Of a stretch of DNA of 36,570 nucleotides, positions 10,770 through 24,482 are shown one piece after another. A model generated the notes under the pieces. The model was not told where the DNA came from. It searched no databases and saw only the letters and a program-made list of their open reading frames with translations. The stretch is taken from the NCBI RefSeq assembly GCF_024345475.1, contig NZ_JAGQBE010000021.1, positions 1-36,570 of the forward strand, read 5' to 3'. The translations under genes were made by a program, and so were the position numbers. Position 1 is the first letter of the stretch; each line of letters begins with the position of its first letter. The DNA is from Cyanobium sp. T1B-Tous. Its GTDB lineage: Bacteria > Cyanobacteriota > Cyanobacteriia > PCC-6307 > Cyanobiaceae.

Positions 10770-12617
10770 TCAGGGCACCAGTCCCACGCCGTTGTGCACG
10801 GAGCCGGCCACGCCCCGACCCTTCACCTGCAGGGAGCCGCCGAGCACCAGTCCGGTGGAGCTGCCGCCGTCCAGGTTCAGGGCATCGCTGAGCCCGAGCT
10901 GTTGCAGCAGCAGGGCCGTTTCCCCGAGGGACGGGCCGCTGTCCTGGGTGCCCTCCAGGGTGATCAGCCACACCTGGCGGTCATCGCGGGCCAGCACGGT
11001 GCGGGGAGCCCCCTGGCTGAGGAAGGAGGCGCTGAAGTTTTCCGCCGCTCCGTTGAGCACGATCCGCCCCTCCTGCAGCAACAGGGGCCCACCGCCAATC
11101 ACGTGGGCGGCCAGGCCAAGGTCGTTGCTCGGCCGGCTGTCGAGCTGCAGCCGGTCGCCGGGTTCCCAAGGCAACGCCATGCCGCCCCGCCCCACCAGCA
11201 ACTGGTCATCGCCCCGCAGGGGCACCCCGGCCTCCAGCGCGTCCGAACTGAGGCGTTGGCTCACCAGGCCCGCCCGCAGGAGCAGGCCCGTTTCCGACCC
11301 GCTCAGGGCCCTGTAGGCGGGGCCCCAGTCGGCGGTGTAACGGCTGATGCCCCGCTGCACATAACCGCTGTTGAGGGCGCTGAGCGGCAGTCGCTGCCCA
11401 TCGGGGCCCGTGACCGACTCCACCAGTTGCAGGCGGCCGAACCGGGGCAGGCTGCGCTCGCTCCAGGCCGCCACGCCCCGGTTGAGAATGGGCCCGGATA
11501 GCCAGCGGCCGTTGGCTTTCAGGGCACCCAGGGGCAGGCGCCGCACCCGGTTGAAGAAGCCACCGTTGATGGCCACCCAGGCCTGCTGTTGGTTGGCGAG
11601 CTGCACCAGCGAACTGAGCCCTTCCATCCCCCCCGGCCTGGCCAGGGGTCTGAGCTGCAGGGAGGCGGTGCGGGGGTCCACCCGTACGGCGTTGATTCGC
11701 ACCCCCTGACGGACCAGGCGGTCCCATTGGATCTCCCTGCCGAGCAGGGCCTGCACGCGCGGATCGATCGGGATGGGCCCGCCGTCGCTGGGCGGAGGGC
11801 CTTCCGCCGGCCACTCGATCACCAGCCGCGGGGGAGCGCCCAGGCTGAACGCCCGCGTCAGCTTCCCCGTTGCTGGTTGGAGTCGCAGCCTGCCGCGGGT
11901 CTGCAGGCCCCCAAGGCCCAGGGCCTTGAGTTGGGTCTGTTGGTCGTCGCGGCTGCTGAGATCCAGCACCAGCCCCCCGCTCTCGCCCTCCACCAGGGCA
12001 GGGCCGCTGAGGTCGAGCACGACGCGCCGCAGGTTGCCGGGGGTGGCGCTGCGAACCTGCAGCAGCTCGGGCCGGCCCAGGCTGAGGCTGAGCTGGCTGC
12101 CCTCCTGGCGCAGGGTCAAGCCGAGGTTTCGGAACAGCCCGGCCACCTCGATGGCCACCTCGTCCTCGAGGCTCCGCTGCGCAGCTGCCGGAACTTTGAG
12201 TCCCTGGCCAAACCATTCGAGGTCGAGGGAGCCGTCGCTCAGGCTGCGGCTGGTGACACCGAGCTGGTTTTCGAGGACCTCGAGGGGGATCCAGAGTTGC
12301 TGGGGGGCTTCGCCGGTACGCCCAACCCACAGCCAGCGGGCTTTCTGGACCCGGCCGTTGATGCTGAGGCTGCTCCCCTGGCGCTCCAGGCCCGCTGGCG
12401 CTTGACCGGTTGGCTTTTGGCCCCTTGGTTGTTGGGTGGGGGTTGGGCTTGGCGTTGACGAGGGCGCAGGCGGCGGCGGCGGTGGCTGTGGCGGTGGTGG
12501 CACAGCCAGGGCCAGGGCCGTTGCCGGCAGCAGCAGGGTCAGCAGGCAGGGGGTCAGCAGCAGGCTGGGCCGGAGGGAACCTGCAGTAGCCATCGCCAGC
12601 CCAGCCGACAGCGCCAA
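10770..12617 (-). CDS. Secreted phosphodiester glycosidase (NAGPA/DUF2233) family protein
   Basis: The predicted product is 615 aa. A signal peptide is visible (hydrophobic LLLTPCLLTLLLPATALALA, about residues 19-38), then a Pro-rich linker (40-63). Residues 85-270 are beta-rich, with repeats such as VVLDLSGPALVEGESGG that look AMIN-like (tentative). Residues 305-615 form the NAGPA domain: AINGGFFN at 349-356, an HVIGGGPLL segment, and the LNLDGGSSTGL motif near the C-terminus. The family includes the human uncovering enzyme and bacterial cell-surface glycan enzymes. An envelope or exopolysaccharide substrate outside the cytoplasmic membrane is inferred, not shown. Two starts are possible, 12617 or the ATG at 12593 (MATAG); both keep the signal peptide. 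It is divergent from gltB across 151 bp. Confidence 0.8.
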   Translation of the reverse strand: MALSAGLAMATAGSLRPSLLLTPCLLTLLLPATALALAVPPPPQPPPPPPAPSSTPSPTPTQQPRGQKPTGQAPAGLERQGSSLSINGRVQKARWLWVGRTGEAPQQLWIPLEVLENQLGVTSRSLSDGSLDLEWFGQGLKVPAAAQRSLEDEVAIEVAGLFRNLGLTLRQEGSQLSLSLGRPELLQVRSATPGNLRRVVLDLSGPALVEGESGGLVLDLSSRDDQQTQLKALGLGGLQTRGRLRLQPATGKLTRAFSLGAPPRLVIEWPAEGPPPSDGGPIPIDPRVQALLGREIQWDRLVRQGVRINAVRVDPRTASLQLRPLARPGGMEGLSSLVQLANQQQAWVAINGGFFNRVRRLPLGALKANGRWLSGPILNRGVAAWSERSLPRFGRLQLVESVTGPDGQRLPLSALNSGYVQRGISRYTADWGPAYRALSGSETGLLLRAGLVSQRLSSDALEAGVPLRGDDQLLVGRGGMALPWEPGDRLQLDSRPSNDLGLAAHVIGGGPLLLQEGRIVLNGAAENFSASFLSQGAPRTVLARDDRQVWLITLEGTQDSGPSLGETALLLQQLGLSDALNLDGGSSTGLVLGGSLQVKGRGVAGSVHNGVGLVP

Positions 12618-12669
12618 ACGCTAGCCGTGTGTGGCTGGCGTGGTGCCGGGGTTTGGGGGTGTGAATCCC

Positions 12670-12675
12670 TAGGAT
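12670..12675 (+). promoter_or_regulatory. Candidate -10 element (TAGGAT) for gltB
   Basis: TAGGAT lies 93 nt before the gltB ATG. It would put the transcription start near 12682, at the foot of the leader hairpin. No clear -35 is seen, and no NtcA-type GTA-N8-TAC site was found by eye in 12618-12768. Confidence 0.35.
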
Positions 12676-12677
12676 CG

Positions 12678-12728
12678 GACGTTCTGTTGGTGCGGCCCCC
12701 TGCGGGGGTTCTGCAGCAGCAGAACGTC
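12678..12728 (+). promoter_or_regulatory. Long hairpin in the gltB leader
   Basis: GACGTTCTGTTG (12678-12689) pairs with CAGCAGAACGTC (12717-12728) over 12 bp with one G-U pair. An inner stem CCCCC (12696-12700) / GGGGG (12704-12708) closes a 3-nt loop. The structure lies between two divergent genes, so it cannot be an ordinary gene-end terminator. It fits a folded 5' leader or a large operator. It lacks the conserved core of the glnA/glutamine riboswitch as I know it. Confidence 0.5.
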
Positions 12729-12730
12729 TG

Positions 12731-12751
12731 GATCAACTGTCAGATCAACTG
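12731..12751 (+). repeat. Tandem 9-bp direct repeat before gltB
   Basis: GATCAACTG occurs at 12731-12739 and 12743-12751 (12-bp period), between the leader hairpin and the gltB start codon. Possible roles are a protein- or RNA-binding site; none is established. Confidence 0.45.
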
Positions 12752-12768
12752 CCGGACCTTCTCGGGTT

Positions 12769-15700
12769 ATGCCTCAATCCCCTCGCCCCGTTTGGCCCCA
12801 TTGCGACAGCCCCGCTCCGGCGGCGGTGGCGGGCGAGAAGGACGCCTGTGGTGTGGGCTTTCTGGCCAGCCTCAAGGGGGTGTCGAGCCACTGGGTGCTG
12901 CAACAGGCCCTGCGCGGCCTCGACTGCATGGAGCATCGCGGTGGCTGCGGCGGCGACGGTGACTCGGGTGATGGCGCCGGGGTGCTGTGTGGCATCCCCT
13001 GGAGCTATCTGGACGCGGTGTGGCCCGAAGCGGCAGCCGCCCAGGGCAGCTCCCGCGGCCTGGGCATGGTGTTTCTGCCGGCCGATGCCAGCAAGCGCGA
13101 CCAGGCCAAGGCCTTCTGCGCCGAAGAGGCCACCAAGCTGGGGCTGCGGAGTCTGGGTTGGCGCGCCGTCCCGCTGAACCCTGCAGTGCTGGGTCCCCTC
13201 GCCCTGGGTACTGCCCCCGCCATTGAGCAGTGGCTGGTGGCGGGTGATCTGGCCGGAGATGCCCTCGAATCCCTGCTGTTCCGTCTGCGGCGCCGCTGCG
13301 GCGACCGGGCGCGTGAAGCCTGGGGCCCCGGCCCTGGCGATCTCTATTTCGCCTCCCTGAGCAGCCGCACCGTTGTGTACAAGGGCATGGTGCGCTCGGA
13401 GGTGCTCTCTGCCTTCTATGGCGATCTGCGGGACGAGCGCTTTGCCGTGAGCTTTGCGGTGTACCACCGCCGTTTCAGCACCAACACCCTGCCCCGCTGG
13501 CCCCTGGCCCAGCCCATGCGGCTGCTGGGTCACAACGGTGAGATCAACACCCTGCTGGGCAACCTCAACTGGGCCCGGGCTTCCGAGGCCAATCTCGATG
13601 CGGTGTGGGGGGAGGCTGCCGCCGAGCTCAAGCCGGTGGTGAATGCCGCCTTCAGTGATTCGGCCAACCTCGACGCCACCCTGGAGCTGCTGGTGCGCAG
13701 TGGCCGGCCCATCACCGAGAGCCTGCTCACCCTGGTGCCCGAGGCCTTCCGCGACCAGCCCGAGCTGGTGGGCAAGCCCGAGATCCAGGCCTTCTACGAG
13801 TATTCCGCCTGCACCCAGGAGCCCTGGGATGGTCCGGCCCTGCTGGTGTTCGCCGATGGCCGCAGCGTTGGGGCCACCCTGGATCGCAATGGCCTGCGCC
13901 CGGCCCGCTACTGCATCACCAGCGACGGCTATGTGGTGATGGGCAGCGAAACCGGCGTGGTGGAGCTCGAGGAGAGCCGCATCATTGAGAAGGGTCGTCT
14001 GGGGCCTGGCCAGATGCTGGCGGTGGACCTGGAGCAGGGCCGCCTGCTGCGCAACTGGGACGTGAAGCAGGAGGTGGCCGCCCGCCACCCCTATGGCGCC
14101 TGGTTGGCCGAACATCGCCGCAACCTGGACCCCCAGCCCTGGACCCAGGAGCGCCAGCTGGGTGATCTGGAGCTGCTGCAGCAGCAGACGGCTTTTGGCT
14201 TCACGGCTGAAGACTTCGACCTGGTGATCGAGGACATGGCGGGTGCGGCCAAGGAGCCCACCTACTGCATGGGCGACGACATTCCCCTGGCGGTGCTTTC
14301 CGATAAACCGCACCTGCTCTACGACTACTTCAAGCAGCGCTTCGCCCAGGTCACCAACCCGCCGATCGACCCGCTGCGGGAAAAGCTGGTGATGAGCCTG
14401 GAGATGCACCTGGGCAAGCGGGGGTCTCCCTTGAAGCCCGAGGCGGCTTCGGCGGCGGTGCTGCACCTGGCCAGCCCGATCCTCAACGAGGCGGAGCTGG
14501 CGGCGGTGGCCCAGCAGGGCCTACCCACGATCACGCTCTCCACCCTGATGGCCATCACCGATGGGCCTGGGGGCCTGGCGGCTGCCGTGGAGCGTCTCAA
14601 GGCCGAGGCCGAGGCGGCGGTGCGCGCCGGCACCCAGATCCTGGTACTCAGTGATCGCGGCGGCCCCAGCGGCGGCATCGCGGCCACCACCACCACCATT
14701 CCGCCGCTGCTGGCGGTGGGTGCGGTGCACCACCACCTGCTCAACCTGGGGCTGCGGCTGCAGGCTTCCCTGGTGGTGGACACCGCCCAGTGCTGGAGCA
14801 CCCATCATCTGGCCTGCCTGATTGGCTATGGAGCCAGCGCCGTGTGCCCCTGGCTCACCTGGGAAACCACCCGCCATTGGCTGGCCCACCCCCGGGTGCA
14901 GAAGCTGATTGAAACCGGCAAGTTGCCTGCTCTCACGCCCGATCAGGTCCAGGCCAACGTGCGCAAGGCCCTGGAAGACGGCCTGCGCAAGATCCTCTCC
15001 AAGATCGGCATTTCGCTGCTGGCCAGCTACCACGGTGCCCAGATCTTCGAGGCCATCGGCCTGGGTGCCGACCTGATCGAGCTGGCGTTCAAGGGCACCA
15101 CCAGTCGGGTGGCCGGCCTGAGCCTGGCTGAACTGGCCAGCGAAACCCTCAGCTTCCATGCCAAGGCCTTCCCCGAGCTGAACCGCACCAAGCTCGAGTT
15201 CATGGGCTTCGTGCAGTACCGCACCGGCGGCGAGTACCACCTCAACAGCCCGGAGATGGCCAAGGCCCTGCACGCAGCGGTCAAGGCGGGCCCTGGCTAC
15301 GACCACTTCTCCACCTACAAGACCCTGCTGGAAAACCGGCCGGTCACGGCCCTGCGCGACCTGCTGGAGCTCAAGCCAGCCGCCACGGCCCTGCCGTTGG
15401 ATCAGGTGGAGAGTGTGGAGAGCATCTGCAGCCGTTTTTGCACCGGTGGCATGAGCCTCGGCGCCCTCTCGCGGGAGGCCCATGAGGTGCTGGCCATCGC
15501 CATGAACCGCATCGGCGGCAAGAGCAACAGCGGCGAGGGCGGTGAGGATCCGGCCCGCTTCGGGGTGCTCAGCGATGTGGACGGCGATGGCCACTCCCCG
15601 ACCCTGCCCAGCCTGAATGGTCTTCGCAACGGGGACACCGCCTGCTCGGCGATCAAGCAGATCGCCTCGGGCCGTTTCGGGGTGACCCCCGAATATCTGC

Positions 15701-17367
15701 GCAGCGGCCGGCAGCTGGAGATCAAGGTGGCCCAGGGGGCCAAGCCCGGTGAGGGCGGCCAGCTGCCTGGCCCCAAGGTGGATCCCTACATCGCCTGGCT
15801 GCGCAACAGCAAGGCTGGCGTGGCGCTGATTTCGCCGCCACCCCACCACGACATCTATTCGATTGAGGATCTGGCCCAGCTGATCCACGACCTCCACCAG
15901 GTGCATCCCGCCGCCAAGGTGAGCGTGAAACTGGTGGCTGAGATCGGCATCGGCACCATTGCCGCCGGTGTGGCCAAGGCCAACGCCGATGTGATTCAGA
16001 TCTCCGGCCACGACGGTGGCACCGGCGCCTCACCGCTGAGCTCGATCAAGCACGCCGGCAGCCCCTGGGAGTTGGGCCTCACCGAGGTGCACCGCTCGCT
16101 CCTGGAGAACGGCCTGCGGGATCGGGTGTTGCTGCGGGCCGACGGCGGCCTCAAGACCGGCTGGGATGTGGTCATCGCCGCCCTGCTCGGTGCCGAGGAA
16201 TACGGCTTTGGCTCGGTGGCGATGATCGCCGAGGGCTGCATCATGGCCCGGGTTTGCCACACCAATAACTGCCCGGTGGGCGTGGCCACCCAAAAGGAGA
16301 ATCTGCGCAAGCGCTTCCCCGGGGTGCCCGAGCACGTGGTGAATTTCTTCCTGTTCGTGGCCCAGGAGGTGCGCCAGCTGCTCAGCGTGCTGGGTGTGGC
16401 GCGTCTGGAGGATCTGATCGGCCGCAGTGAGTTACTCCAGCCGCGGGCTGTGGCCCTGGCCAAAACCCAGGCCTTGGATCTCTCCTGCCTGATCGATCCG
16501 ATTCCGGCCGCGGCCGATCGCCGCTGGCTGCAGCACGAGGCCGAGGCCCATGGCAATGGTCCAATCCTGGAAGATCAGCTGCTGGCTGATGCTGAGGTGA
16601 TGGCCGCGATCGAGGGCCACGGCCGGGTGCGCCGCACCCTGGCGATCGTCAACACCGACCGCAGTGTGGGCGCCCGTCTCTCCGGCGAGATCGCAGCGCG
16701 CCACGGCAACAAGGGCTTCCAGGGCCAGCTCGACCTCACCCTGGAGGGCGCGGCCGGCCAGAGCTTTGGGGCCTTCGTGCTCCAAGGCATGAATGTGCGC
16801 CTGGTGGGTGAAGCCAACGACTACGTGGGCAAGGGCCTCAATGGGGGGCGCCTCACCGTGGTCCCCCCTGCCGGCGGCAATGACCCCGGCAGCCAGGTGA
16901 TCCTCGGCAACACCTGTCTTTACGGCGCCACCGGCGGTGAGCTGTTTGCCCTGGGCCGGGCCGGGGAGCGCTTCGGCGTGCGCAACAGCGGCGCCCGCAC
17001 CGTGGTGGAGGGTGCCGGCGACCACTGCTGCGAGTACATGACCGGCGGCGTGGTGGTGGTGCTGGGCAGCACCGGCCGCAACGTGGCCGCCGGCATGACC
17101 GGTGGCGTGGCCTTCATTCTCGATGAGAGCGGGGGGCTGCGGGAGCGGGTGAATCCGGAGATCGTGGCCATTTGCGAGCTCACCACCTCTGAGCAGGAGG
17201 CCCTGCTCAAGCCCCTGTTGCAGGCCCATCTCGACGCCACCGGCAGCGCCAAGGCCGCCGCGATCCTGGCCGACTGGAGCACCTGGAAGGCCCAGTTCAA
17301 GCTGCTGGTGCCCCCCAGCGAGAAGGCCACCGTGGGTCTGGCCGAGCGGGAGGCGGTGGTGGCTTGA
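12769..17367 (+). CDS. gltB: Ferredoxin-dependent glutamate synthase (Fd-GOGAT)
   Basis: This enzyme makes two glutamates from glutamine and 2-oxoglutarate using reduced ferredoxin, completing the GS-GOGAT cycle. The protein is 1532 aa. A short propeptide precedes Cys27 in KDACGVGF, the N-terminal nucleophile of the glutaminase domain. The amidotransferase domain runs to about residue 430, then the central domain, and then the FMN-binding synthase domain with SGEGGEDPARFG and HDGGTGASP. The 3Fe-4S cysteines C1157, C1163 and C1168 follow the CX5CX4C spacing. The C-terminal beta-helix of Gly-rich repeats (GXXGG, about 1280-1450) is typical. No gltD-like NADPH subunit is adjacent, and the context is photosynthetic, so the ferredoxin type (glsF) is favoured. 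It converges on lipA with a 22-bp gap. Confidence 0.95.
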   Translation: MPQSPRPVWPHCDSPAPAAVAGEKDACGVGFLASLKGVSSHWVLQQALRGLDCMEHRGGCGGDGDSGDGAGVLCGIPWSYLDAVWPEAAAAQGSSRGLGMVFLPADASKRDQAKAFCAEEATKLGLRSLGWRAVPLNPAVLGPLALGTAPAIEQWLVAGDLAGDALESLLFRLRRRCGDRAREAWGPGPGDLYFASLSSRTVVYKGMVRSEVLSAFYGDLRDERFAVSFAVYHRRFSTNTLPRWPLAQPMRLLGHNGEINTLLGNLNWARASEANLDAVWGEAAAELKPVVNAAFSDSANLDATLELLVRSGRPITESLLTLVPEAFRDQPELVGKPEIQAFYEYSACTQEPWDGPALLVFADGRSVGATLDRNGLRPARYCITSDGYVVMGSETGVVELEESRIIEKGRLGPGQMLAVDLEQGRLLRNWDVKQEVAARHPYGAWLAEHRRNLDPQPWTQERQLGDLELLQQQTAFGFTAEDFDLVIEDMAGAAKEPTYCMGDDIPLAVLSDKPHLLYDYFKQRFAQVTNPPIDPLREKLVMSLEMHLGKRGSPLKPEAASAAVLHLASPILNEAELAAVAQQGLPTITLSTLMAITDGPGGLAAAVERLKAEAEAAVRAGTQILVLSDRGGPSGGIAATTTTIPPLLAVGAVHHHLLNLGLRLQASLVVDTAQCWSTHHLACLIGYGASAVCPWLTWETTRHWLAHPRVQKLIETGKLPALTPDQVQANVRKALEDGLRKILSKIGISLLASYHGAQIFEAIGLGADLIELAFKGTTSRVAGLSLAELASETLSFHAKAFPELNRTKLEFMGFVQYRTGGEYHLNSPEMAKALHAAVKAGPGYDHFSTYKTLLENRPVTALRDLLELKPAATALPLDQVESVESICSRFCTGGMSLGALSREAHEVLAIAMNRIGGKSNSGEGGEDPARFGVLSDVDGDGHSPTLPSLNGLRNGDTACSAIKQIASGRFGVTPEYLRSGRQLEIKVAQGAKPGEGGQLPGPKVDPYIAWLRNSKAGVALISPPPHHDIYSIEDLAQLIHDLHQVHPAAKVSVKLVAEIGIGTIAAGVAKANADVIQISGHDGGTGASPLSSIKHAGSPWELGLTEVHRSLLENGLRDRVLLRADGGLKTGWDVVIAALLGAEEYGFGSVAMIAEGCIMARVCHTNNCPVGVATQKENLRKRFPGVPEHVVNFFLFVAQEVRQLLSVLGVARLEDLIGRSELLQPRAVALAKTQALDLSCLIDPIPAAADRRWLQHEAEAHGNGPILEDQLLADAEVMAAIEGHGRVRRTLAIVNTDRSVGARLSGEIAARHGNKGFQGQLDLTLEGAAGQSFGAFVLQGMNVRLVGEANDYVGKGLNGGRLTVVPPAGGNDPGSQVILGNTCLYGATGGELFALGRAGERFGVRNSGARTVVEGAGDHCCEYMTGGVVVVLGSTGRNVAAGMTGGVAFILDESGGLRERVNPEIVAICELTTSEQEALLKPLLQAHLDATGSAKAAAILADWSTWKAQFKLLVPPSEKATVGLAEREAVVA

Positions 17368-21874: not shown

Positions 21875-21970
21875 ATGATTCTTTCTGTTCTGTAAAGCCC
21901 AGTGCTGGCCTGGGAAGCGCCGGGATTGAACCTTTGTAACTGCAGCCCAAAAGTCCTCGGAAACGGCCTC

Positions 21971-21976
21971 TATACT
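21971..21976 (+). promoter_or_regulatory. Candidate -10 element (TATACT) of the psaAB promoter
   Basis: TATACT matches five of six positions of TATAAT and is the best such site in the region. It predicts a transcript start near 21983 and a psaA leader of roughly 195 nt, comparable to the long leaders known for psaA in other cyanobacteria. The -35 area (CAAAAG, 21949) is weak, which suggests activator dependence. Confidence 0.5.
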
Positions 21977-22091
21977 TCCGCCAGCGGTCCCCTATCTGGG
22001 GCCCCAAGCTCCAGTTGTGGCAAGCGGTTTCACGGTTTCGTGGACTTCTTTCCCGCTGGTGCCCATGGGTGGTTCGGAAGCTTCGGCGTCC

Positions 22092-22127
22092 GGCCCCCAT
22101 GGGGCCCACTGGTAGGCCCTCCGGCCT
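22092..22127 (+). promoter_or_regulatory. Two adjacent hairpins in the psaA 5' leader
   Basis: GGCCCC/GGGGCC (22092-22097 and 22101-22106, 3-nt loop) and AGGCC/GGCCT (22114-22118 and 22123-22127, 4-nt loop) lie 50-90 nt before the psaA ATG. Neither is followed by a U-run. They may shape leader stability or translation of psaA. Confidence 0.4.
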
Positions 22128-22178
22128 GCCTCAGGGGTGGACCCACCACCTCGACCCCGTCCCTCGAGGAACGTCTCG

Positions 22179-24482
22179 ATGACCATCAGCCCACCAGAGC
22201 GTGGGGAAAAGGCGAAGGCCATGGTCGACCGGAACCCCGTTCCGGCCACCTTCGAACTGTTCGGCAAGCCCGGCCATTTCGATCGCAGCCTTGCCAAGGG
22301 TCCCAAAACCACCACCTGGGTTTGGAACCTCCACGCCAATGCTCACGACTTCGACAGCCACACGAGCGACCTCGAAGAGGTCTCTCGCAAGATCTTTTCG
22401 GCTCACTTCGGCCATCTGGCCGTCATCTTCATCTGGCTGAGCGGCGCCTTCTTCCATGGAGCGCGCTTCTCCAACTACACCGGTTGGTTGACCGACCCCC
22501 TGCACGTCAAGCCTTCGGCGCAGGTGGTTTGGCCGATTTTTGGCCAGGAAATTCTCAATGGCGATGTGGGTGCCGGCTTCCACGGCATTCAGATCACATC
22601 CGGTCTCTTCCACGTGTGGAGGGCCTGGGGCATCACCAACGAAACCCAGCTGCTGGCCCTGGCTATCGGCGCTCTGGTGATGGCCGGCCTGATGCTCAAT
22701 GCGGGCGTCTTCCACTACCACAAGGCAGCTCCCAAGCTTGAGTGGTTCCAGAACGTTGAGTCGATGCTCAACCACCATCTGGCCGGTCTGCTTGGCCTGG
22801 GCTCCCTGTCCTGGACAGGACACCTGCTGCATGTGTCCCTGCCCACCAACGCGCTGATGGAGGCCATCGACGCCGGCAAGCCGCTGGCGCTCAACGGCAA
22901 GACCATCGCCACCTACGCCGACATCCCCCTGCCCCACGAGTTCCTGAATCAGGACGTGATTGCCCAGCTGTTCCCCGGTTTCGGGGCGGGCATCTCAGCC
23001 TTCTTCACGGGCAATTGGGCGGCTTACAGCGATTTCCTCACCTTTAAGGGTGGGTTGAATCCCGTGACCGGCAGCCTCTGGATGACCGACATCGCCCATC
23101 ACCATCTGGCGATTGCGGTGCTGTTCATCGTGGCCGGCCACATGTACCGCACCAACTGGGGCATCGGCCACAGCATCAAGGAGATCCTCGAGGGCCAGAA
23201 GGGCGATCCCCTGCTGTTCCCCGCTCCCAACGGTCATGACGGACTCTTCGAGTTCATGACCACCAGCTGGCACGCCCAACTGGCTGTGAACCTGGCTCTG
23301 CTGGGCTCGCTGACCATCATCGTGGCCCAGCACATGTATGCGATGCCTCCGTATCCCTACATCGGCATCGACTACCCCACCCAGCTGTCGATCTTCACCC
23401 ATCACACCTGGATCGGTGGCTTCCTGATCGTTGGTGCCGGCGCCCACGCCGCCATCGCGATGATCCGCGACTACGACCCCGCCAAGCACGTGGATAACGT
23501 GCTCGACCGGGTGCTCAAGGCCCGCGATGCCCTGATCAGCCACCTCAACTGGGTGTGCATTTGGCTGGGCTTCCACAGCTTCGGCCTCTACATCCACAAC
23601 GACACCATGCGTGCCCTGGGTCGCCCCCAGGACATGTTCAGCGACTCCGCCATTGCCCTGAAGCCCGTCTTCGCGCAGTGGATCCAGGGACTTCACGCCG
23701 CCGCCGCCGGTAGCACCGCTCCCAACGCCCTTGCGGGTGTGAGTGAGGTGTTCAACGGCGCCGTGGTGGCCGTGGGTGGCAAGGTGGCCGCCGGTCCGAT
23801 CCCCCTGGGAACGGCCGACTTCATGGTCCACCACATCCACGCCTTCACGATCCACGTCACCGTGCTGATCCTGCTGAAGGGTGTGCTGTACGCGCGGAGC
23901 TCCCGCCTCGTCCCCGACAAGGCAAACCTGGGCTTCCGTTTCCCCTGCGACGGCCCCGGCCGTGGCGGCACCTGCCAGGTATCGGCTTGGGACCACGTGT
24001 TCCTTGGCCTGTTCTGGATGTACAACTCCCTGTCGATCGTTATCTTCCACTTCTCCTGGAAGATGCAGAGCGACGTGTGGGGCACCGTCAACGCTGACGG
24101 CAGCGTCCAGCACATCACCAACGGCAACTTCGCCCAAAGCGCCATCACCATCAATGGTTGGCTGCGGGACTTCCTCTGGGCCCAGGCCGCACAGGTGATC
24201 AACAGCTACGGCTCGAGCTCCAGTGCTTACGGTCTGATGTTCCTGGGAGCCCACTTCATCTGGGCCTTCAGCCTGATGTTCCTGTTCAGTGGCCGCGGCT
24301 ACTGGCAAGAGCTGATTGAGTCCATCGTCTGGGCTCACAACAAGCTGAGGGTTGCCCCCGCCATCCAGCCGCGGGCGCTCTCCATCACCCAGGGCCGTGC
24401 TGTCGGTGTCGCTCACTATCTGTTGGGCGGTATCGCAACAACCTGGGCATTTTTCCTGGCCCGCATCGTCGCGGTCGGCTGA
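22179..24482 (+). CDS. psaA: Photosystem I core protein PsaA (P700 apoprotein A1)
   Basis: PsaA forms one half of the PSI reaction-centre heterodimer in the thylakoid membrane and binds P700, antenna chlorophylls, phylloquinone and half of the FX cluster. The product is 767 aa with about 11 membrane helices. The start ATG at 22179 gives [13 protein letters not shown], the family start, with GAGGA about 8 nt upstream. The FX ligands are C590 and C599 in [12 protein letters not shown]. The sequence has features of picocyanobacterial PsaA, including a long lumenal or stromal loop near residues 228-245 ([14 protein letters not shown]) compared with beta-cyanobacterial forms as I remember them. 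psaB follows after 19 bp, so the two are cotranscribed. Confidence 0.98.

Follow-up and report, generated by a model that had tools for sequence, protein, structure and literature searches.

A 5'-proximal hairpin with covarying pairs in the gltB leader of Cyanobium and its possible role in message stability

In Escherichia coli, the ompA mRNA carries a stabilizing stem-loop at its 5' terminus. Passages of PMC3997798 explain stabilization by 5' structures through the need of RppH and RNase E for single-stranded 5' ends, and papA appears through the references given there among the E. coli cases. For cyanobacteria, GS/GOGAT is presented in parts of PMC6316151 as the main route of nitrogen assimilation, and glutamate synthase genes are named in passages of PMC2864571 among the reported targets of glnA RNAs. 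Among the titles and abstract openings listed from open-licence literature, none describes a leader hairpin before picocyanobacterial gltB or glsF. Here we describe a candidate leader of this kind in Cyanobium.

The gltB locus and its 5'-proximal hairpin

The stretch that we analysed, hereafter the window, comprises 36,570 nucleotides of Cyanobium sp. T1B-Tous (contig NZ_JAGQBE010000021.1), in a draft genome of 2.71 Mb. Its features around the start of gltB are as follows.

12769 to 17367, plus strand: gltB (glsF), ferredoxin-type glutamate synthase of 1532 aa, ATG at 12769, with Pfam domains GATase_2, Glu_syn_central, Glu_synthase and GXGXG
10770 to 12617, minus strand: gene of 615 aa with a phosphodiester glycosidase (NAGPA) domain, from its frame and Pfam, divergent from gltB and starting at 12617
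12665 to 12676, plus strand: extended -10-like region ATCCCTAGGATC, hexamer TAGGAT at 12670-12675, recurring before gltB in Cyanobium/Synechococcus relatives
12681, plus strand: predicted transcription start, G12681 within about 2 nt either way, from the hexamer and a 5-nt spacer
12681 to 12725, plus strand: 5'-proximal hairpin of the gltB mRNA, -30.3 kcal/mol, with paired probabilities near 1 at most bases of the stem

The 1532-aa gltB frame is the longest of those listed for the window, and its message is very long (4.6 kb). Among the best 80 of the 575 GltB loci found, the nearest named relative is Cyanobium sp. FACHB-13342, followed by Vulcanococcus limneticus (GltB 99% and 88% identical, respectively, each over about 300 residues). 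The -10-like TAGGAT, the hairpin and a doubled 12-nt unit all lie between the divergent frame and gltB.

The anatomy of the hairpin is fairly secure. Its arms, 12678-12700 and 12706-12728, are 78% complementary, and RNA folding predicts an outer stem of 14 pairs (12676 to 12730), a 1x1 mismatch and, inside, a GC stem-loop with a 2-nt bulge; the main hairpin and the gltB start codon are 43 nt apart. Its stability exceeds what composition would give, since the 141-nt hairpin region has a folding z of -2.59 (1 of 200 shuffles at least as stable) and, of 24,352 segments of 45 nt taken at every third position on both strands, 9 are as stable as 12681-12725. These values bear out the folded leader that the initial annotation had proposed before gltB. 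Its statement that the hairpin sits between divergent genes and is no gene-end terminator also holds, with frames starting at 12617 (minus) and 12769 (plus) and no terminator-like site with a T-run found at the hairpin. An intrinsic terminator was set aside because the GC hairpin has no T-run behind it, and a dispersed repeat hairpin because searches of the window's genome, both by sequence and by covariance model, returned this single match and no further copies.

G[T/C]TCT stands five bases past the hexamer in all ten hairpin-bearing leaders of the genus. From this, together with the TAGGAT hexamer and the 5-nt spacer, we infer a +1 at G12681, so that the hairpin would start with the very first base of the gltB mRNA. 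When starts from -4 to +3 of 12681 were folded, the first base of the RNA was paired in each case. The hairpin had been placed at the predicted mRNA 5' end before, and a predicted start near 12681, not downstream of 12728, agrees with that placement. A consensus scan called no sigma-70-type promoter at the gltB start region, missing TAGGAT because there is no -35 partner.

The pattern YYTAG[GA]ATY occurs up to 260 nt upstream of gltB in 45 of 89 loci (95 minus six duplicates or near-duplicates, L005, L007, L017, L020, L022 and L025; L054 is counted among the 45 despite its short upstream stretch). A -10 motif stricter than this pattern, which served for the leader folding sets, was present in 31 of 49 GC-rich gltB upstream regions, compared with a shuffled mean of 0.10 (largest 2), and in 5 of 38 AT-rich ones, 33 being without it. 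ATCCCTAGGATC had seemed palindromic and deeply conserved and was considered as a special gltB operator. A second exact copy in the window's genome, however, lies 23 nt before a frame that we take from its protein sequence to be pheT (copy at L101:1501-1512; loci L130-L159), and 15 of the 27 pheT loci retained (30 pheT/rpmG loci minus three near-duplicates, L138, L146 and L153) have TAGGATC before the gene. We therefore regard it as a common -10 form, which does not mark a gltB regulon. The gene divergent to pheT, presumably rpmG from its protein sequence, has its own recognizable -10-like element.

Despite the central role of GS/GOGAT, the strict NtcA site GTA-N8-TAC was seen neither at gltB in the window nor in the relatives scanned (0 of 64 gltB loci, L002-L065, duplicates included, up to 260 nt upstream and over shorter stretches in some). 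This confirms the absence of an NtcA site noted initially, and an NtcA-regulated promoter was rejected on this ground. Looser GT-N10-AC matches occur in some other gltB loci, none of them in the window's genus.

Covariation of the core helix and additions in the window

A gltB match was found in 15 of the 16 genomes of the genus that were searched. The core helix is kept in ten of these 15 loci, with compensatory and G-U changes, and is absent from five.

12689 to 12717, plus strand: covarying hairpin core, 12 aligned pairs, from the alignment of ten genus leaders

This alignment holds all genus leaders with the hairpin, L005 and L007 included; a nine-leader alignment leaves out L007, L118 (genome G100) is in neither, and the L120 stretch holds no leader. 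In the ten leaders, core pairs were formed in 90.6% of cells (80.8% in shuffles) and the covariation score was 0.330 (0.145 in shuffles), and neither value was reached by any of 500 shuffles. Two-sided changes occur at 4 core pairs, a number reached in 12 of the 500, and one core pair is seen as U-A, U-G, C-G and G-C. Slid registers of the same alignment pair in 31 to 54%. G-U accounts for 19 of 106 paired cells, a frequency that favours RNA over a DNA palindrome. Covariation is likewise present in the nine-leader alignment, so that its expected occurrence in homologous leaders was borne out.

In addition, we built a covariance model from nine of the ten leaders, which match it by construction. 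Matches were found in 13 of 201 family genomes: gltB leaders of ten genus genomes (weak in G002), one further gltB leader (G100) and weak ones elsewhere. Among the frames listed, no GltB-like frame lies behind the weak matches in G078 and G165 or the second matches in G002 and G100. Within the genus, L011 and L012 gave weak matches (45 and 38 bits) with the core absent, and L014-L016 are short and have no leader match. The G100 leader stands at G100:C373, assigned to genus g59, with a matching hairpin and a GltB 86% identical to that of the window over 200 residues; in the two genus mates of G100, GltB identity is 75%. The close match of G100 possibly reflects misassignment or transfer.

The fold itself seems to matter, since close relatives retain the hairpin while the letters of its stem change, and the core looks like a maintained RNA fold as judged from the aligned leaders. 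Structure kept while stem sequence varies is a trait of 5'-terminal stabilizing stem-loops, found here in 10 of the 15 genus loci. The apical loop is variable among the aligned leaders. Within the genus, sequence conservation extends to the 5' GYTCT and to much of the leader's 3' half, so that not everything is shape, and a pure shape model leaves these parts unexplained. A GATC/GATC pairing from the alignment fold was set aside because it uses bases 5' of the predicted start.

Outside the core, the window carries the following elements.

12681 to 12688, plus strand: 5' arm of the outer stem, GUUCUGUU, pairing with 12718-12725
12718 to 12725, plus strand: 3' arm of the outer stem, AGCAGAAC, found in no aligned leader other than those of the window and L003 (= L017)
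12731 to 12754, plus strand: direct repeat, two copies of a 12-nt unit, GATCAACTGTCA / GATCAACTGCCG
12751 to 12767, plus strand: small start-proximal hairpin GCCGGACCTTCTCGGGT, 5 pairs, all lettered cells paired in nine leaders, weak

The outer eight pairs, flush with the predicted +1, depend on the 3' arm of the window and L003; in the other genus relatives about five bases at the 5' end are unpaired or weakly paired. The direct repeats reported initially are indeed there, GATCAACTG occurring twice (12731-12739 and 12743-12751) inside the 12-nt unit. This unit has three copies in L003 and at most one clear copy in other genus leaders, and Tandem Repeats Finder at score 30 gave no report at the repeats. 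Because the window has two clear copies and its nearest relative three, with the distal copies resembling a tandem duplication, we rejected the repeats as a functional element: they look like a local tandem duplication rather than a conserved element. The outer eight pairs and the repeat units together look like lineage additions on an older core. In the small hairpin, the nine leaders contain a single two-sided change, in L013.

Folding of gltB leaders beyond the genus

To extend the comparison, we computed the folding of 44 picocyanobacterial gltB leaders at set offsets from the predicted start. These are the 45 motif-bearing loci (the 44 loci without motif being dropped) minus L055, which contains unknown bases. 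The stretch from +1 to +50 folds better than shuffles, with a mean z of -1.31 (p 2e-6), and the mean remains -1.13 for the 31 leaders outside the genus. At 19 other offsets the mean z ranged from -0.57 to +0.36; at three of these (-150, +175 and +250) the mean was small (-0.50, +0.36 and -0.57) although p fell below 0.01, in one case towards less structure. With similar leaders grouped, the 18 groups gave a mean z of -1.01 (p 0.0013; 14 negative), and groups with Prochlorococcus-labelled leaders (L035, L043, L044/L045, L054 and L056) fell between -0.84 and +0.53. In 39 of the 44 leaders, the minimum-energy fold has its first paired base between +1 and +8. Most leaders of other genera have no match to the genus hairpin model, the z-scores of many single leaders are modest, and G010, G012 and G013 have predicted leaders of only about 29 nt.

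The antisense strand has a nearly equal excess (mean z -1.11), so that the +1 to +50 test cannot separate RNA from DNA. At the same position, the leaders of two control genes gave +0.32 (rpmG, 26 leaders) and +0.27 (pheT, 15 leaders). Elsewhere the rpmG set reached -0.69 at -50 and, in conserved coding DNA, -1.43 at +100, values which indicate that related sequences can mimic folding signals. In a sister Cyanobium/Aphanothece group (L037, L039, L040, L041, L042 and L047), gltB is preceded by a different leader, about 130 to 150 nt long, in which several hairpins are predicted and sequence is conserved; this is a separate candidate structured leader.

Possible roles of the leader and comparison with known systems

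Taken together, a fold that is kept, a stem sequence free to change and a placement at the 5' end fit a stabilizing 5' stem. Our tentatively preferred reading is that the 5'-proximal hairpin works by shape, presumably without a ligand, and delays 5'-end-dependent decay of the 4.6-kb gltB message. The mRNA would start near 12681, directly at the stable hairpin, and its paired 5' end would be a poor substrate for a decay route in which RppH removes pyrophosphate and RNase E follows, so that the message would live longer. Lineages would tend to keep a hairpin at this position and rebuild its sequence, and the lineage of the window may have gained an additional 3' arm that brought the stem level with the 5' end. 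According to passages of PMC2897979, no gene of Prochlorococcus MED4 is longer than glsF, which serves there as the figure example of 5' to 3' decay. For Prochlorococcus SS120, parts of PMC5451487 report that glsF expression and protein content agree after azaserine, which makes control at the mRNA level plausible and is not specific to decay.

Several observations count against this decay model. According to passages of PMC3997798, only some 10% of E. coli mRNAs are affected when RppH is lost. The evidence for 5'-to-3' decay comes from Prochlorococcus, whose labelled groups showed the z values given above, and 33 of 38 AT-rich upstream regions are without the strict motif. Moreover, the strong stem flush with +1 is confined to the window and L003, the core is missing in 5 of 15 genus loci, and the consensus scan called no sigma-70-type promoter. 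If true, a 5' hairpin maintained for its shape would offer a simple means of post-transcriptional control over a very long message, and cyanobacterial engineering could use it as a stabilizing part. It is unlikely, in our estimate, that picocyanobacterial gltB mRNAs share a family-wide 5' hairpin, selected in position while its sequence turns over, as a regulated element coupling the output of glutamate synthase to nitrogen or carbon state via mRNA decay and replacing NtcA control.

The foremost alternative, to which we give a real if minor chance, is that the leader is an uncharacterized cis-regulatory RNA controlling gltB by sensing nitrogen state via a protein or metabolite. The covarying helix, the strong model matches, all at gltB leaders, and the sequence-conserved 3' part would suit such an element, and regulatory RNAs of glutamate synthase genes are described elsewhere in passages of PMC2864571 and PMC8632094. 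However, the variable apical loop and the five genus loci without the core argue against a metabolite-binding switch, and no Rfam family reached its gathering score in 20 gltB loci.

Neutral structure, with GC-rich leaders folding in any case and covariation mirroring relatedness, is rather unlikely. The modest single-leader z-scores, the ten sequences available, the 12 of 500 shuffles that reach the two-sided pair count and the ability of related sequences to exceed all shuffles are consistent with it. Set against these are the paired cells and covariation score that no shuffle reached, the poor pairing of slid registers and a folding peak at +1 to +50 that the two control genes lack.

We regard it as improbable that the region tunes the start of translation, whether as a standby site for ribosomes or in concert with the mini-hairpin near the start codon: there is one two-sided change in 12751-12767 and, by eye, no Shine-Dalgarno-like sequence before the gltB start, but the main hairpin lies 43 nt from the start codon and some predicted leaders measure about 29 nt. 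That the inverted repeat acts at the DNA level, serving the promoter as operator or pause element, is very improbable; both strands fold and the repeat abuts the -10-like element, whereas the G-U cells and arms without operator-like sequence conservation speak against it.

We take GGAAGUAGG to be the core motif of the glutamine riboswitch RF01739. The loose likeness to glnA-type RNAs suggested at first was not upheld: membership by a covariance score above gathering together with the core motif was found on neither count, since RF01739 was not among the matches at the gltB leader even at E 10 and GGAAGTAGG has no match in the window. The leader is thus no recognizable glnA riboswitch. A divergent one is favoured by the outer arms CGTTCT/AGAACG and by the naming of glutamate synthase as a glnA RNA target in parts of PMC2864571, but it is largely refuted as well: besides the missing match and motif, the outer stem occurs in only 2 of the 10 aligned leaders, and the genome has an RF01739 match elsewhere.

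That match (37.1 bits; G000:C35:26490-26553, L102:691-754) includes GGAAGTAGG and lies about 40 nt before a 37-aa frame, MTITTAKQLVRQAEEARRAARQNGYAVLALRKQSLID, followed by a hairpin that is terminator-like by eye and a further frame, which presumably encodes a class II fructose-bisphosphate aldolase, as it resembles one. RF01739 matches occur in 3 of the 16 genus genomes, 2 of them above the cut-off. The window also contains a psaA RNA (RF01752, 112.9 bits) at 21969-22182, where it overlaps the beginning of the listed frame 22137-24482.

Compared with described systems, the gltB hairpin shares with the glnA RNA (type 1 glutamine riboswitch, RF01739) an association with cyanobacterial nitrogen genes including glutamate synthase, as given in passages of PMC2864571, but has neither the family match nor the core motif. 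Like the gltD motif riboswitch candidate (SRC-18-1), described in parts of PMC8632094 and compared here by its description, it is a structured RNA before a glutamate synthase gene; the gene is a different one, and no Rfam family matched at gltB. The psaA RNA is likewise a structured cyanobacterial leader, with a different gene and family. Unlike the 5'-terminal stabilizing stem-loops of E. coli mRNAs, the gltB hairpin belongs to a cyanobacterium, and we infer both its role and the start site, the latter from sequence. If transcription begins near 12681, the stem would sit at the very 5' end of the mRNA or a few bases from it, and the likeness to these stem-loops would be that of a stable hairpin at or near the 5' end, acting by shape.
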